A stretch of DNA of 64,000 bases from Thiothrix litoralis. Its GTDB lineage: Bacteria > Pseudomonadota > Gammaproteobacteria > Thiotrichales > Thiotrichaceae. Shown in pieces: positions 5,103 to 12,319 of this stretch. The stretch's first letter is position 1. Every line of letters starts with the position of its first letter. The notes below the pieces were generated by a model. The model was not told where the DNA came from. It did no database searches and worked only from the letters and a program-made list of their open reading frames with translations. Made by a program: the position numbers and the translations under genes. The stretch lies in NCBI RefSeq assembly GCF_017901135.1, contig NZ_CP072801.1, positions 2,232,001 through 2,296,000 of the forward strand, given 5' to 3'.

Positions 5103-6119
5103 ATGAGCAACCGGCTCATTCTCGGTGCTATCGTCGCAGCGGCGTTATGCACTCCACCCGCCATTCAAGCAGATACCATGCTTGGTGCCTATGTTAAAAG
5201 CGATGGCTGGTCTCTCAGTGCAATGGATGAATTTAATTTAGCCACGGGAAAACCGATGGCAGTGACGAATTTATTTACTAATTTTGACTATCACTGGGGC
5301 TATTTGAAGTACCAGTCAGACAATATTATTTCCCGGGGCGGCGTACCTTTGATTTCGTGGATGCCCGCCACTTCTACCCGCCTGAATGCCAACCTGCTAC
5401 CGGAAATTGCCGCCGGGCAGTGGGATGCGTATATCGACCGTTGGATCAACGGTTTCAAATGGTGGCGCTCCGGCGTACCGGCTGGTTCCCATTCAAACAT
5501 CATGTTGCGGTTCGGACATGAATTCAATGGCAACTGGTATCCGTGGGGCAATGACCCGGAAAACTTCAAGGCAGCTTGGCAGCATATTCATGACCGCTTT
5601 GAACAAGCTGGTATTAACCCTTATATCGAATGGGTCTGGTGCGCCAATAATGCCGACGTAGATTCCGTTAAAGATATAACCCGTTATTATCCTGGTGACG
5701 CTTATGTCGACTGGACATCACTGGATGGTTATAACTGGGGCAGTAATTACTCCTTTTCCAGTTGGAAAAGCTTTGATGAAGTATTCAGCGCACCCTATAA
5801 CAAGCTGATTGACAACTACCCAAGCAAACCCATTCTTATTGCCGAAGTCGGTGCTCCCGAACCAAGCGACTTACCCAACCCTAATTACGGCCAAAATGGT
5901 AATGACACTGACCGCCATGAAAGCAAAGAAGCTTGGGTTGCGAATATGTTCACCCGTATTGAAGAATCTTACCCCGCCATCCGCGCCGTTAGCTGGTTCA
6001 ATATCAACAAGGAGCTAAACTGGGCATTGGATCAACCCAATAACACCGGATTGACGGCTTACAAAGCCACCACTCAAAGCTCGCATTACAGCAGCACTTA
6101 TAGCCCTATTACCCAATAA
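5103..6119 (+). CDS. Secreted glycoside hydrolase family 26-like protein
   Basis: Predicted secreted glycosidase of 338 residues. A signal peptide covers residues 1-23 (cleavage near IQA-DT). The GH26 (beta-mannanase-type) core shows the acid/base motif RFGHEFNGNWYPWG with Glu140, and the nucleophile motif PILIAEVGAPE with Glu248. WVWCANN and SLDGYNWG blocks also fit the family. It probably cleaves beta-mannan or a related glucan or xylan outside the cell or in the periplasm. The gene and its upstream region are visibly AT-richer than the flanking operon, which suggests recent acquisition. A small secreted protein follows after 19 bp. The substrate cannot be read from sequence. Confidence 0.85.
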   Translation: MSNRLILGAIVAAALCTPPAIQADTMLGAYVKSDGWSLSAMDEFNLATGKPMAVTNLFTNFDYHWGYLKYQSDNIISRGGVPLISWMPATSTRLNANLLPEIAAGQWDAYIDRWINGFKWWRSGVPAGSHSNIMLRFGHEFNGNWYPWGNDPENFKAAWQHIHDRFEQAGINPYIEWVWCANNADVDSVKDITRYYPGDAYVDWTSLDGYNWGSNYSFSSWKSFDEVFSAPYNKLIDNYPSKPILIAEVGAPEPSDLPNPNYGQNGNDTDRHESKEAWVANMFTRIEESYPAIRAVSWFNINKELNWALDQPNNTGLTAYKATTQSSHYSSTYSPITQ

Positions 6120-7446: not shown

Positions 7447-8019
7447 ATGCAACACGTATTGAAACTGCTGGGGGCAACTGCCCTGACTTTCGCCCTGCTC
7501 TCTGGTTCTGCCTTCGCTGACTGGACGCTGGATAACAGCAAATCCGCCCTGTATTTTGTCTCGATCAAGAAAGAGAATATCGCCGAAACCAACACCTTCA
7601 AAAATCTGACTGGCCTCATCACCACAGCCGGTCAGGGTTCATTGAATATTGATTTGGCCAGCCTGAGCACCAATATCGACATCCGCGACCAGCGGATGCG
7701 CGACCATCTGTTTGATACTAAAACCTTTCCCAATGCGACGGTCAGCGTTGACTTGAGCAAAACCGGGATCAATCCCGGCATCCAGACCGTGAACGTCACG
7801 CTGGATCTGCATGGGGTCAAAAAAGACATTCCCGCCACCGTGGCGATTACCGAAGTGGGCGACACCGTGCAAGTCGTCACCGTTGCCCCGGTTTTGTTGA
7901 ATGCGGCAGACTTTGATCTGGCAGGCGGCTTGACGATTTTGCGGGAAATTGGCGCAGTCAGCAGCATTAGCAATGCCGTACCCGTGACGTTTTTCCTGAG
8001 TTTCGTCAAACAGGCTTAA
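7447..8019 (+). CDS. YceI family periplasmic protein
   Basis: A 190-residue exported protein: signal peptide 1-24 (cleavage at AFA-DW) followed by a YceI lipocalin-like barrel. Family marks are the opening DWTLDNSKSALYFVSIKKENIAETNTF, the central IDIRDQRMRDHLFDTKTFPNATV block and the D-L-H-G-V-K-K turn. YceI proteins bind isoprenoid-like lipids or amphiphiles in the periplasm. GAGGG precedes the ATG at suitable distance. It converges on the ATP-grasp gene, and the two stop codons overlap by 4 bp, so no terminator fits between them. Confidence 0.85.
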   Translation: MQHVLKLLGATALTFALLSGSAFADWTLDNSKSALYFVSIKKENIAETNTFKNLTGLITTAGQGSLNIDLASLSTNIDIRDQRMRDHLFDTKTFPNATVSVDLSKTGINPGIQTVNVTLDLHGVKKDIPATVAITEVGDTVQVVTVAPVLLNAADFDLAGGLTILREIGAVSSISNAVPVTFFLSFVKQA

Positions 8020-8903
8020 GGCAACACCCCCAAATGCCGTAGCAGGGCGTCACTCAGCGCCCCTGCTGCTACCTGATCGAAACCCGCAAACATTGGGTTG
8101 GTATTGATTTCCAGAAATTGCAGTTCGCCGCTCACCACATCCGTCTTGAAATCGGCGGCAGCAAACGTCAGCCCTAAATGGTCGGAGAGCTTTGCCAGCT
8201 TTTCAACCAGATCGCCGGGCGGCATAACCACTGCCATGCGTGTGGCGGCAGAACTGCGGTAATCCAGCGCATCCGACACCACCCGAAACCCGAACCACTC
8301 GTGACCGATACGGAATATCCGCATCTCAGGTTGTTCCAGACGACGCTGCACGATTTGTGGATACGACAGAATCGTATTGCCCTGCCCTTCATGCTTGTCG
8401 AGCACGGTACAATAGGCCCCCCCCGTGACGGGTTTCACTATCCAGTCACCGCTGTCGTGCAGTTGATCCATCGCGGGAATATCATTGCTGATATAGGTAT
8501 CCGCCACGTTAAAACCCAGTTCCAGCGCCAGCCGCAACACATGCGGCTTGTTAACGCCCCCGCACGCCAGAAAACGGCGGTTACACACCGTAATATCCGG
8601 CGAGCTTAACAACCAGCCGGATACCGTAACGAACCATTCCCGCGCCAAAGCATTATCCTGCACATCATTGCTTTTCAGGTAAGCAAACACATCCTGACGG
8701 ATGAAAGCGGCAGATACCTGCACACCTTCACCATCATCCAGCAAGCGATTCTGGCGAATGTCCCAATGCAGGCGCGGGGAACCCGATTGCCCAGTCAGCA
8801 GGCTATGCACCGGAATACCATGCAGCGCCGCCCGTTTCAACAGACGCACCATCTGGGGGTCAGTATCACCACCTGCTAATAACAATCGGGTTCTGTTTGC
8901 CAT
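8016..8903 (-). CDS. ATP-grasp ligase, putative graspetide-forming enzyme
   Basis: A 295-residue ATP-grasp protein. DWIVKPVTGGAY (Lys157) is the nucleotide-binding lysine strand; FRIGHEWFGFRVVSDALDYRS (Asp214, Arg216) resembles the core-binding DWR/DYR segment of MvdC/MvdD/PsnB-type macrocyclases; ADFK (Asp251) and FLEINTNPMFAG (Glu265, Asn267) are the Mg-binding end. Such enzymes phosphorylate Asp/Glu side chains and join them to Thr/Ser or Lys side chains of a precursor peptide. The gene starts 3 bp after the DUF6174 protein with TTxxxxEE motifs, whose 3' end carries its ribosome site (AAGGCGG). RimK-like glutamate ligase activity is the main alternative. Fold is secure; macrocyclase activity is inferred from motif and context. 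Confidence 0.8.
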   Translation of the reverse strand: MANRTRLLLAGGDTDPQMVRLLKRAALHGIPVHSLLTGQSGSPRLHWDIRQNRLLDDGEGVQVSAAFIRQDVFAYLKSNDVQDNALAREWFVTVSGWLLSSPDITVCNRRFLACGGVNKPHVLRLALELGFNVADTYISNDIPAMDQLHDSGDWIVKPVTGGAYCTVLDKHEGQGNTILSYPQIVQRRLEQPEMRIFRIGHEWFGFRVVSDALDYRSSAATRMAVVMPPGDLVEKLAKLSDHLGLTFAAADFKTDVVSGELQFLEINTNPMFAGFDQVAAGALSDALLRHLGVLP

Positions 8904-8906
8904 TTA

Positions 8907-9938
8907 TTAATCCGCCTTGATAGGAGGGCCAAGATAGATAGGCAGCTCGTTAGTGAAACCACCATCTTCCTCACCAATCGCTAGTGTGGTCGCAATCGGT
9001 GGTTCTACCGGTGGCTTGATTGGGCCAGGCGTAATACCACCGCCGTCTTCTTCACCCACCGCCAACGTCGTAAAGACTGGCTCAGGCTGGAAGTTGGAAA
9101 TCGTATAACTCACCTCGTCATCCACTGCTTGCCCGATCTGATCAATGTAGATCGAGGTTGGCAAGCCGAATTGCTTGTCATACGTTGCATCGACTTGCGC
9201 CGCACCACTGTTGATACCCTGCTGAACGAGATTAAATAGGCCATCCCCATTCAGGTTATACACCGACTGTTTATTGTATTGCCGATCATCAGGAATCAGT
9301 TCCCCAGTATCCGCGTAACGTGCCTCGGTGACGCTACCATCCCGCACTTGAATATTAATGGGACGCGTCGACTCCGGTGTGCAGAAACAACTGCGCTGGA
9401 ACGTCAAAGAATAATCGCTGATACCCAACGAATCCCACTTCTTGAGATTAGTATTCAGTTGTTGTTGCGCCGTGGAAGTCGTGCCACCACTGTTAATGGC
9501 TTTCACATCTTTAGCTGTCAGCTTCTGCCGGGAAATTTCCCCGCCGGTAATCCCACCAGAAATCACCAACGTATCGCCTGCGCTCAGCTTGCCATCCTTT
9601 TTGCTATCCAGCACTTCATAGGTCAGTGAACCACCGATATTGAAACGCTCACGGATTGCTGCATCCTGTTGCTTGCTCAGCTCCAGCGGCTTGTCTACCG
9701 GCGTGGGGGGTTTTGGCCTGCAACCTTTGCCAAGCTGATCAATCAGTTGCTGGATAAGTGCCATCAACGCATCATTGTTGCCACCCAGCGGGTTACGCGC
9801 CTGATCCTGAATGCCCGTAACGGCGTTCTTGAGTGCTGTAGAGGTCGCCGTCGTCACCTGTGAGGATGAGCTGCTGCTGGATGTCTGGTTGTTGGGTTGG
9901 CTATCCCGAACCCCACTTCCTTGTGTTATAGCTGTCAT
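8907..9938 (-). CDS. DUF6174 protein with two TTxxxxEE motifs: putative graspetide precursor
   Basis: A 343-residue protein with no signal peptide. Segments: Ser/Thr-rich N-terminus (1-35), a helical part, an EF-hand-like loop (Asp111-Asp122), a DUF6174 domain at about 165-283 (CFC at 184-186, DATYDKQFGLPTSIYID), and a Pro/Gly-rich tail. The tail carries two near-identical units, TTLAVGEEDGG at 290-300 and TTLAIGEEDGG at 317-327. TTxxxxEE is the core motif of plesiocin-type (group 2) graspetides, in which Thr hydroxyls are esterified to Glu side chains. Known precursors are short; here a whole folded domain would act as leader or carrier. GGAG stands 7 bases before the ATG. The DUF call is firm, precursor status is inferred. 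Confidence 0.78.
   Translation of the reverse strand: MTAITQGSGVRDSQPNNQTSSSSSSSQVTTATSTALKNAVTGIQDQARNPLGGNNDALMALIQQLIDQLGKGCRPKPPTPVDKPLELSKQQDAAIRERFNIGGSLTYEVLDSKKDGKLSAGDTLVISGGITGGEISRQKLTAKDVKAINSGGTTSTAQQQLNTNLKKWDSLGISDYSLTFQRSCFCTPESTRPINIQVRDGSVTEARYADTGELIPDDRQYNKQSVYNLNGDGLFNLVQQGINSGAAQVDATYDKQFGLPTSIYIDQIGQAVDDEVSYTISNFQPEPVFTTLAVGEEDGGGITPGPIKPPVEPPIATTLAIGEEDGGFTNELPIYLGPPIKAD
8967..9071 (-). repeat. Twin TTLAxGEEDGG core repeats at the 3' end of the DUF6174 gene
   Basis: The two TTxxxxEE units are encoded at 9048-9071 and 8967-8990, 81 bp apart, joined by a Pro-rich linker (ITPGPIKPPVEPPIA). Codons differ between copies (ACG ACG TTG versus ACC ACA CTA), yet the peptide is conserved apart from a Val/Ile exchange. 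This suggests selection on the peptide rather than a fresh DNA duplication. Confidence 0.75.
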
Positions 9939-10144: not shown

Positions 10145-12319
10145 ATGGCAACTCGGGAAGAACTCAGCGCACAAGCATCCGCCTGCAACGACGCAGCCTC
10201 TTACGCAGCACTCGCCAAACAGGCAGCCGCAGAACCAGCCGATCTGGACTACGCCAAAGAACTGCTGGCAAAAGGCGAATCCAACTGCTCCTTCCCCGAT
10301 CATTACGTAGCCGTTGCCGAAGGCTATGTGGCCGCCGGTGATCACGACAAAGCCGCCGCCCTGTATGACGAAGCTGCAAATAGCTGCTTTGATGCCAAAG
10401 AAAAAGCCGAAACTGGCTACAGCATTGCCAAATACCTCGGCGACCGCGACAAAGGCCGCGCCCTGCTGGAAGAGGCCATTGCCGAAACCACCAACACCAC
10501 CGAATTACTGTCTTATGCCGGGTATGTTCAGGATGCTCTGCAAGACAACGAATTAGCCAACAAGCTGTTCAGCAAAGTCACCGCCAACTGCAAAAGCATT
10601 GCCGATTACCAGAAACTGGCGACCGACATCAAAAACAGCGGCAACCCCACTACCGCGCTGATGGTCTTCAAAAAAGCGGCACCTTCCAGCAATGACACCA
10701 CCGATGTGGTCGACTTCGCCAAGGGTCTGAAGGACTTGTTTGGGGATGATAAAGAGGTCGCCGCCACCCTCGCCGATGCTGAAAGCGGCTGCATGTTCCC
10801 CGGTCAGTTTGTTGCGCTCGCGGGCGGTTTCATCAACCTGCTCGACGACAAAGCCAAAGCCGAAGACCTGCTCGAACAAGGCAAAAACTTTGCCATGAGC
10901 GGCGAAGAAAACCTCGACCTTGCTACCGGCTACGCCAGCTTGCTCGGCGACCAGTCCACTGCTGCCGACATGTACAACGTTGCCCTCAACGAATTCAGCA
11001 ACAAAGATGACCTGCTGAAACTCGCGGGCTCCGTTGCCGCCAACATGGATGACAAAAGCATCGCAGGCAAAGCATACGACAAGCTCGCCAGCAAACTCAG
11101 CAACCCGGCTGACATCGCCATGCTGGCAAAAGCGGTCAACGACAACCTCGGCGACAAAGACAAAGTAGCCAGCCTGTATGCTGCTGCCGAAGAAAAGGCC
11201 ACCACTGCCGCCGCGCTGGTCACACTGGCAGGCGAAGTCAACGCCAACCTGCAAGACCCCGCCAAAACCAATGCGCTGTACGCCAAAGCCGTGGACGCTT
11301 GCAAAGTCTACACCGATGCCACCAGCATCCTCGAAGCGCTTGCCAAAAACCCGGCGGATGCCGCCCTTGCTGCCACTTCCCTGCAAAAAGCGCTGGAGTT
11401 GACCGAAACCAATGCCCAAGTGCTGGACGTTGCCCAACGCGCCCAAAAGCTCACCCCCGGCGACAACACCGTGGTAGAACAGGCACTCGACAAAGCCGAA
11501 GCCAACGTCAGCTCACTGGACGAAATGCGCAAACTCGCCAACGCATCCAAGCAATTGCTGGCTGATGACACCGAGCGCAACGAGCGTATCGGCGCGAAAC
11601 TGGCCAAACGTGAAGCCAGCCAAGCGCGTTACACCGAATTCCAGAATCAGGAAAAAACCCTGACACGCCCCGGCCAGTTCATTACGCTAGCCAGTACCGT
11701 GGTCGAAGAACTGGAAGATACCTCCTACGCCACCCAGTTGCTGACCACTGCCGAAGAAAAGATGCAGGCAAACACCTTCAGCTTTGCCGCCTACCAGCCG
11801 CTGATCGTTGCGGTTGGCAATCTGGTGAAAGACAAAACATGGCTGGCGCGTTTGCTGGACTTGGCTGCCAGCCACAGCAACACGTTCGCGCAAGTACGCA
11901 GCCTCGGCGAAACCGTCAGCAAGCAGCTCAGCGACACCGCTTTCGGCAAGGAATGGACGCAGAAATTCTACAGCGCCCAACTCGACAAGCTGGATGCGGG
12001 CAGCGCCAGTACTTTCGAGTACAACAAGCTGGCGAAAGTAGTCAAGGAACACCTCGGTGACGACACCCAAGCCCAGCAAATTCTGGACAAAGGCGAAGCC
12101 AAGGCCGAAAGCCATTTCCATTTCGCCTACATGGCAGAACTGGCGCAAAAATGGGGCAATGCCGACAAAGCCAAAAGCCTGTACGACAAAGCGACTGCCG
12201 CTTGCCACAATCCCGCGCAGCAACGCGAACTTGCCGACCTGATGCGTAAAGCAGGCGTTGCCAATAGCGTGACGCAAGCTGCCACCCAAACCCAAGGCGG
12301 CAAAGGCACTTACTGGTAA
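10145..12319 (+). CDS. Large TPR/SEL1-like helical repeat protein
   Basis: A 724-residue cytoplasmic protein without signal peptide or membrane segment. It consists almost wholly of degenerate helix-pair repeats of about 33-37 residues with the pattern A..LY..A....(N/D)..DL..LA..... (for example DHDKAAALYDEAAN, DQSTAADMYNVALN, DKDKVASLYAAAEE, NADKAKSLYDKATA). This spacing matches tetratricopeptide or SEL1-type solenoids, which bind peptides or proteins. Several repeats share SNCSFPDHYVAVA / SGCMFPGQFVALA-like openings with a conserved Cys. TTTGGAGGAAC places a strong ribosome site before the ATG. It is divergent from the putative graspetide precursor, from which it is separated by 206 bp. Function unknown. 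Confidence 0.75.
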   Translation: MATREELSAQASACNDAASYAALAKQAAAEPADLDYAKELLAKGESNCSFPDHYVAVAEGYVAAGDHDKAAALYDEAANSCFDAKEKAETGYSIAKYLGDRDKGRALLEEAIAETTNTTELLSYAGYVQDALQDNELANKLFSKVTANCKSIADYQKLATDIKNSGNPTTALMVFKKAAPSSNDTTDVVDFAKGLKDLFGDDKEVAATLADAESGCMFPGQFVALAGGFINLLDDKAKAEDLLEQGKNFAMSGEENLDLATGYASLLGDQSTAADMYNVALNEFSNKDDLLKLAGSVAANMDDKSIAGKAYDKLASKLSNPADIAMLAKAVNDNLGDKDKVASLYAAAEEKATTAAALVTLAGEVNANLQDPAKTNALYAKAVDACKVYTDATSILEALAKNPADAALAATSLQKALELTETNAQVLDVAQRAQKLTPGDNTVVEQALDKAEANVSSLDEMRKLANASKQLLADDTERNERIGAKLAKREASQARYTEFQNQEKTLTRPGQFITLASTVVEELEDTSYATQLLTTAEEKMQANTFSFAAYQPLIVAVGNLVKDKTWLARLLDLAASHSNTFAQVRSLGETVSKQLSDTAFGKEWTQKFYSAQLDKLDAGSASTFEYNKLAKVVKEHLGDDTQAQQILDKGEAKAESHFHFAYMAELAQKWGNADKAKSLYDKATAACHNPAQQRELADLMRKAGVANSVTQAATQTQGGKGTYW

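Follow-up and report, generated by a model that had tools for sequence, protein, structure and literature searches.

The stretch of DNA described here, referred to as the window, comprises 64,000 nucleotides of Thiothrix litoralis (contig NZ_CP072801.1, positions 2,232,001 to 2,296,000), whose genome is a single contig of 4.28 Mb. It carries a pair of genes that encode a protein with a DUF6174 domain, from here on the partner, and an ATP-grasp ligase; a first-pass annotation of the sequence had described this pair as a putative graspetide locus. The coordinates given there for both genes are correct, and so is the gap of 3 bp, given that three bases (TAA) separate the stop codon of the partner gene from the ATG of the ligase gene. 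The features of the pair, in positions of the window, are as follows.

8016..8903, minus strand: ATP-grasp ligase, PsnB-like, 295 residues; K157, E265 and N267 present, invariant in aligned relatives
8907..9938, minus strand: putative modified-protein precursor (the partner), 343 residues, 36.4 kDa, with N-terminal module, EF-hand-like segment, DUF6174 domain and two core units
9801..9938, minus strand: N-terminus rich in Ser, Thr, Gln and Asn, residues 1-46, in which no Sec signal was recognized by eye
9699..9800, minus strand: N-terminal helix module, residues 47-80; helix at 55-71 in a low-confidence model; common to other Thiotrichaceae proteins
9495..9686, minus strand: EF-hand-like segment, residues 85-148, with the loop DSKKDGKLSAGD; motif recognized by eye, no Pfam match
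9084..9461, minus strand: DUF6174 domain, residues 160-285; Pfam E 1.7e-38
9039..9071, minus strand: core unit 1, TTLAVGEEDGG, residues 290-300; exact TTxxxxEE match
8958..8990, minus strand: core unit 2, TTLAIGEEDGG, residues 317-327; exact TTxxxxEE match

TTxxxxEE is the repeat motif of plesiocin, and the tail of the partner thus contains the repeated core of group 2 graspetides. Both units are exact matches, as had been claimed, and the use of different codons in the two is borne out in the DNA. Among the stop-to-stop frames of at least 100 residues in the window, which amount to 41,059 residues, TT....EE occurs twice; since both occurrences fall in the DUF6174 protein, a chance origin of the motif is excluded. 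The DUF6174 domain named in the first-pass annotation likewise corresponds to a strong Pfam match (residues 160-285). The predicted structure of the partner is poor, with a predicted local distance difference test (pLDDT) of 52, and a search with its tail against PDB sequences gave nothing useful.

The ligase contains the motifs attributed to it, i.e., K157, a DYR segment (214-216) and EINTN (265-269), and the residues K157, E265 and N267 are invariant in 9/9 and 16/16 relatives of two alignments. Its nearest named relative, from T. lacustris, is 97% identical. A Pfam scan gave no match at E<=1; among the NCBIfam models of graspetide ligases, it matches TIGR04187 (E 2e-17), MvdC (1e-5) and MvdD (2e-3). 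The sole PDB sequence matched at E<=0.001 is 7drm (E 2.5e-12), which the fold search names PsnB, the plesiocin ligase. The AlphaFold model of the ligase is good (pLDDT 88; predicted template modelling score, pTM, 0.87), and when it was used with Foldseek, ranks 1-13 were all PsnB chains (7drp_A, E 2.4e-19), followed up to rank 30 by PruB, AMdnB, a Chryseobacterium ligase of ribosomally synthesized and post-translationally modified peptides (RiPPs), MdnC and MdnB; ArgX/LysX appear from rank 31, and RimK first at rank 36. The identity to PsnB in the fold alignments is 20-23%. By sequence and predicted fold, the adjacent ATP-grasp ligase is a relative of PsnB, and RimK is further away; a RimK-type glutamate ligase was rejected on this ranking together with the variable C-termini of the partners described below.

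Ligases of the same clade are present in 15 of 76 related genomes, that of the window included, and these comprise 13 of the 16 Thiothrix genomes and two others of the family. In a wider search of the class, 6 of 369 genomes matched at E<=1e-10, i.e., the genome of the window and five distant ones. In all 15 genomes with a clade ligase, a neighbouring gene on the same strand encodes a protein that bears between one and four [ST]TxxxGEE units; proteins with such units are referred to here as tagged. The gap between the two genes is about 0.55 kb in genome G034 (locus L004), and in the other clade genomes the genes are separated by a short distance or overlap. G003 and G011 each have a single unit that escaped the unit profile and was found by reading. 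In the 36 units of these 15 proteins, Thr2, Gly6, Glu7 and Glu8 are invariant (36/36) and Thr1 is replaced once, by Ser (35/36); all four Thr codons are in use, and the linkers and C-termini of the partners vary in the alignment. At the level of the sequence, strong selection is evident on TTxxxGEEDGG cores located at the C-terminus of the partner, behind predicted folded domains. The contigs of GTDB genomes gave seven loci with a relative of the ligase, and all seven adjoin a protein with TTxxxGEE units; six of them seem, by sequence, to come from the same genomes as in the set of 76. The two genes are on the same strand in these loci, except for the convergent pair of Candidatus Caenarcanales.

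Units are also found beside another type of ligase. The genomes G009, G019, G030 and G036 have them in short precursors, each next to a longer ligase of canonical type, and these four ligases are 46-78% identical to one another; those of G036 and G030 were not listed by the clade-ligase profile and were identified by reading and BLASTP. The precursor of G009, a Thiothrix, has 208 residues and six TT..xGEEDGG units, without DUF6174. A graspetide-type ligase lies beside the units in 19 of the 19 genomes counted with units. The profile match in G005 (E 0.0067) is a lone TTLALGEEA in an isolated frame of 118 residues and was not counted. This genome gave no ligase at E<=1e-6, and neither a unit nor a ligase appears in the region translated at the locus, where a DUF6174 protein is divergent from the same tetratricopeptide repeat (TPR) gene that flanks the pair of the window and its homology ends after the DUF6174 domain. 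The joint absence of units and ligase from G005 is suggestive and not conclusive, because the assembly has scattered ambiguous bases. It is supported, then, that the plesiocin-like core and the PsnB-like ligase are inherited, and apparently lost, together.

The part of the protein that precedes the cores is much more variable. Ten tagged Thiothrix proteins have DUF6174 without RTX repeats; for P0002, L021 and L022 the absence of these repeats comes from a Pfam scan, and for the others from inspection by eye. The partners of G003, G011, G034 and G039 have RTX repeats before DUF6174, detected with Pfam as HemolysinCabind repeats in L043 (of G003) and L004 (of G034) and by eye in the other two; the protein of the window has none of the repeats expected of an RTX exoprotein. 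Five tagged proteins were scanned with Pfam, and their DUF6174 matches have E-values of 1e-38 to 1e-44. The precursor of G002 (the sequence of L006/L020), on the other hand, has 151 residues and consists of an N-terminal helix, Pro-rich linkers and the cores, without DUF6174 or RTX. The ligase of G002 is nested inside the clade as sister to those of G003 and G011 (support 98/89), in a tree of 31 rows that leaves out L017 and 17 of the 29 loci (L090-L118) from the phylum of Caenarcanales, and in which the row of L118 is long and doubtful; therefore, the scaffold was probably lost in G002 and is probably not needed by the ligase. Of the interpretation made in the first-pass annotation, the pairing of a plesiocin-like core with a PsnB-like ligase stands, and the proposal of a whole DUF6174 domain as leader does not, since a ligase of the clade adjoins a precursor without this domain. 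Because the scaffold varies (DUF6174, RTX plus DUF6174, or none), DUF6174 looks like a domain inserted between the N-terminal segment and the cores. In addition, eleven DUF6174 matches were found in four large open frames (610, 745, 794 and 844 residues) of another member of Thiotrichaceae (G017:C1:33602-42683).

Besides the cores, the Thiothrix precursors with and without scaffold have in common a helix of the NLIQQLIxQL type that follows a start rich in Ser, Thr, Asn and Gln; it is weak or absent in G003 and G011, and both are missed by the profiles. Profile A6 of this module matches haem peroxidases near their N-terminus, in the genome of the window (E 1.3e-3) and in four other Thiothrix (9e-4 to 5e-3); the An_peroxidase domain was confirmed with Pfam in the former (E 6e-164) and in one protein of G023, and the other peroxidases were recognized by eye. 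Profile A7 matches a collagen-like protein of 1398 residues in the genome of the window (E 6e-4), followed by two glycosyltransferases, and, in G036, G009 and G008, repeat peptides whose genes adjoin radical-SAM/SPASM genes (1.6e-5 to 3e-4). Since A7 includes peroxidase rows, its E-values for peroxidases are circular; those that are not are about 1e-3 for A6, and 1e-5 to 1e-3 for A7 with proteins outside the profile. The module was seen on unrelated Thiotrichaceae proteins at L145/L151 (G000:C1 ~524,300), L184 (G000:C1 ~2,749,300), L170, L187, L188 and L142; the local frames of L187 and L188 in the helix alignment are not the helix itself. Several of the untagged DUF6174 proteins that were read have, by eye, a lipoprotein- or Sec-type start, and others have the helix. 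As for a leader recognized by the ligase, a conserved N-terminal helix exists, yet it is also present on proteins without a ligase. The module may be an undescribed export signal, and its presence on a haem peroxidase and on a collagen-like protein suggests export of the tagged protein as well; we infer that the latter belongs to a group of outer proteins that share this N-terminus. Small proteins with (P/A)VYG repeats carry the same module (L170:1381-1809, L187:1224-1712 and L188:1233-1634); the radical-SAM/SPASM gene beside them is near TIGR04103 of NCBIfam, below its cut-off in the two scanned, and together they probably form another RiPP-type system, one that shares this N-terminus.

Relatives of the ligase were also found, at E<=1e-6, in 48 of the 386 genomes of the phylum of Caenarcanales. 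Cores of the TTxxxxEE type, mostly GEEGG, are present at 18 of 29 other loci among the matches listed; these GEEGG cores, exposed by the ligase search, are missed by the tag profile of 23 rows, which is tuned to GEEDGG and at E<=1e-5 finds the Caenarcanales genome alone among the 386. Eight short precursors (frames of 76-135 residues) have a leader of PF(D/E)L type or similar, and GG precedes the first unit in 8/8; of two other frames below 150 residues, L090 has no GG and L104 is partly masked. A protein of G187 (L099/L189) that adjoins a ligase has a different architecture: it starts with MVAHPFEL, continues with Calx-beta (Pfam E 6e-16, on 431 of its residues) and then has seven units, in 603 residues from stop to stop. 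It has no GG after the leader, and a single GG, 233 residues in, before the units. This is an independent case of the same layout, a leader followed by a folded extracellular-type domain and cores, in another ligase clade. The partners in Caenarcanales itself have DUF3060 and weak RTX matches, with the units within the chain. The locus there (L007:5986-10932) is a tandem of two ligase/partner pairs, and in both the ligase gene is convergent with the gene of a DUF3060/RTX-like protein that bears units of the TTxxxGEE type; the second pair has a frame of 131 residues in between and a weak DUF3060 match. In the same phylum, related ligases adjoin proteins at L103:2520-3086 and L107:2508-3083 (189 and 192 residues open) that have repeated motifs of the AYPSDDA type and not TTxxxxEE.

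We propose, with a probability of roughly 0.6 for the whole chain of events, that the pair is a plesiocin-like graspetide system with a whole protein as substrate, i.e., that the tail is esterified, the folded part stays uncut and the product is exported. In the first step, the ligase would phosphorylate both Glu side chains of each unit and join them to the two Thr hydroxyls, giving two nested omega-esters per unit and up to four in this protein (-72 Da), as PsnB does on PsnA2, where it installs two lactones per repeat (PMC9484694). Taken alone, esterification of the units by the ligase is very probable. Secondly, the folded part with DUF6174 and the EF-hand-like segment would remain uncut, behind the N-terminal helix module and ahead of the cores, resulting in a protein with rigid hairpin loops displayed on its tail. 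Thirdly, the N-terminal module, common to other apparently extracellular proteins, would direct the protein out of the cell. Once outside, the hairpins would most likely act as a multivalent serine-protease inhibitor or as protease-resistant heads, as in plesiocin, for which inhibition of serine proteases and a potency that rises with the number of motifs have been described (PMC13097080).

Several observations weigh against this proposal. The ligase scores below every curated cut-off for graspetide ligases (63/350 bits for TIGR04187, 24/425 for TIGR04185 and 17/475 for TIGR04184), it is approximately 23-25% identical to the longer canonical-type ligases of its own family where BLASTP aligns them, and in the tree the ligases of the clade share a very long branch away from the canonical ones. 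Three relatives have a single unit, in one case Ser-initial, and the evidence from G005 is affected by the ambiguous bases already mentioned. The model of the partner gave no fold match at E<=0.001, and weak LolA/LolB-like matches were not used. Most units themselves end in GG, and the tail may yet be cut off by a general protease. The case for export is drawn solely from the shared N-termini and from the relatives with RTX or Calx-beta, and the N-terminal helix also heads proteins without a ligase.

The alternative that survives best, which we nevertheless regard as unlikely, is an ordinary secreted graspetide: the tail would be esterified, an unlinked protease would free one or two hairpin peptides, and the DUF6174 protein would be an oversized leader or carrier. 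This would agree with the canonical short precursors that bear this core elsewhere in the genus and family (G009, G019 and G036), with the complete disappearance of the scaffold in G002, and with the existence of protein-like folded leaders in RiPPs, such as NHLP (PMC12455567). However, the folded part is itself conserved, as judged from the DUF6174 matches of the five tagged proteins, and a genome-wide search for Peptidase_C39, positive in 8 of 14 control genomes, gave no match here. Group 2 graspetides show a high co-occurrence of NHLM-type or C39 transporter/peptidases (PMC13097080), and none was found among the scanned neighbours of the pair. The sole well-conserved double Gly before the cores, in SGGITGGE (residues 127-134), belongs to the EF-hand-like segment and precedes unit 1 by about 160 residues; this sequence is missing in four relatives (G002, G003, G011 and G015), and one of its two GG is also present in the untagged L053. 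Likewise, the Calx-beta protein of G187 has no GG after its leader, while in that phylum all 8 short precursors with a leader of PF(D/E)L type or similar have one ahead of their first unit. An uncut product fits these observations, and the suggestion of the first-pass annotation that the modified protein itself may be the product agrees with the evidence.

A second alternative, improbable in our judgement, is that ester or amide crosslinks form between units of different copies, or to a partner, and produce a covalent matrix instead of hairpins. Thiothrix forms sheathed filaments, and the scaffolds of the relatives are extracellular-type domains (RTX, Calx-beta), as would suit a matrix. A graspetide ligase has also been reported to cross-link assembled protein chains (PMC12291112); on the other hand, the TTxxxxEE spacing is that of the plesiocin repeats, with two lactones each (PMC9484694), and the unit is single in three relatives. 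Finally, an amino-acid ligase of the RimK/LysX type, by which Glu or a different group would be attached to this protein or to some other target, with the repeats as an unmodified acidic tail, can practically be dismissed: such ligases belong to the same ATP-grasp superfamily, with ArgX/LysX and RimK as strong fold matches from rank 31 and a weak MptN-type match in NCBIfam, but ranks 1-30 are RiPP macrocyclases and the C-terminus varies among the 15 partners (KAD, FYK, DYK, AAI, LLQ, PIK, YRE, NYR, YTK, NVE, NAE, GEE), whereas the units are nearly invariant.

The proposal of a whole-protein substrate could be extended, tentatively and with somewhat less than even odds in our estimation, to a general use of graspetide chemistry as a protein modification. 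Portable TTxxxGEE(D/G)G tags would follow, or lie inside, folded proteins of extracellular type (DUF6174, RTX, DUF3060, Calx-beta), and the product would be the protein left unprocessed, with its ester hairpins; in Thiotrichaceae, the tagged protein would be one of a surface or matrix set, with the haem peroxidase, the collagen-like protein with glycosyltransferases and the radical-SAM-linked repeat peptides, that shares an N-terminal export module. A type of ring-making enzyme associated with small protease-inhibitor peptides may thus also decorate whole, probably exported proteins, and the N-terminal module offers a testable handle on the possible export route of such proteins. Graspetides have been mined as small peptides; should substrates the size of proteins prove real, such filters have removed some members of the class. 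In the survey of Makarova (2022), candidates were limited to clusters mostly of <=150 residues, and several large proteins that matched the motifs were excluded as being far from the ligase gene or having unfitting annotations (PMC8939145). The precursor of 343 residues falls outside this limit, which is a survey filter and not a matter of chemistry. In the literature searched, from which subscription journals were mostly absent, DUF6174 is not mentioned, and none of the matches listed describes a natural graspetide precursor that contains folded extracellular domains.

Regarding the surroundings of the pair, the absence of a protease or exporter noted in the first-pass annotation holds for the neighbours scanned (YceI-like, TPR-like, GH26-like and TetR), which are a subset of the genes in the window. 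The ligase gene overlaps by 4 bases (8016-8019) with a convergent gene for a YceI-domain protein (7447-8019). A TPR-like protein of 724 residues is encoded divergently from the pair (10145-12319), and its gene is kept beside the locus in L001, L002, L003 and L021, and also in G005. The protein encoded at 5103-6119 has a partial match to GH26 glycoside hydrolases (E 1.9e-10). An origin from a mobile element or phage was discarded: tblastn with the ligase returned three plasmid records and one phage record, all below 31% identity and none covering 80%.

Among known systems, the pair most resembles PsnA2/PsnB of plesiocin in its TTxxxxEE repeats with linkers, in the single adjacent ATP-grasp ligase and in having PsnB as the nearest solved ligase. 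It differs in the 343-residue precursor, with DUF6174 and EF-hand-like parts between the N-terminus and the cores, in a ligase that is distant from PsnB at the identity given above, and in the lack of a transporter or protease among the scanned neighbours. The TTLALGEEGG precursors from the phylum of Caenarcanales (e.g., L095-L097, L100, L101, L109 and L110) resemble the pair in their core, which is almost identical, and in their ligase, which is related; in contrast with the pair of the window, they are frames of 76-128 residues with an HPFDL...GG leader and a double-Gly site, and their ligase belongs to another clade. The exception in that phylum is L099/L189, with its HPFEL leader, Calx-beta domains and seven units. 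In proteusins, the leader (NHLP) resembles nitrile hydratase and is normally removed. The protein-like leader of a RiPP precursor is a point in common with these proteusin/NHLP systems (PMC12455567); unlike them, the partner has no NHLP domain, and Pfam finds DUF6174 alone.

Large precursors have been described by Carter et al. (2026), e.g., CorA of about 22 kDa with a helical N-terminal domain, as well as the long repeat precursors of groups 34, 35 and 41 (PMC13097080). Corallotide (CorA, group 15) is comparable in its unusually large precursor with a folded helical N-terminal part; it differs in its KxxxD isopeptide chemistry, in the additional oxygenase and partner proteins, and in being confined to the genus Corallococcus (PMC13097080). 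The ligase ThfB tolerates whole proteins in its substrate and a moved leader (PMC12291112, PMC13003496). As in the cyclisation engineered with ThfB, a graspetide ligase would act here on a substrate that contains a whole protein; in the engineered case the protein lies between the crosslinked residues, while here the folded part naturally precedes the cores. If the proposal is true, the protein crosslinking that has been engineered with ThfB (PMC12291112) would have a counterpart in nature in the pair from T. litoralis.

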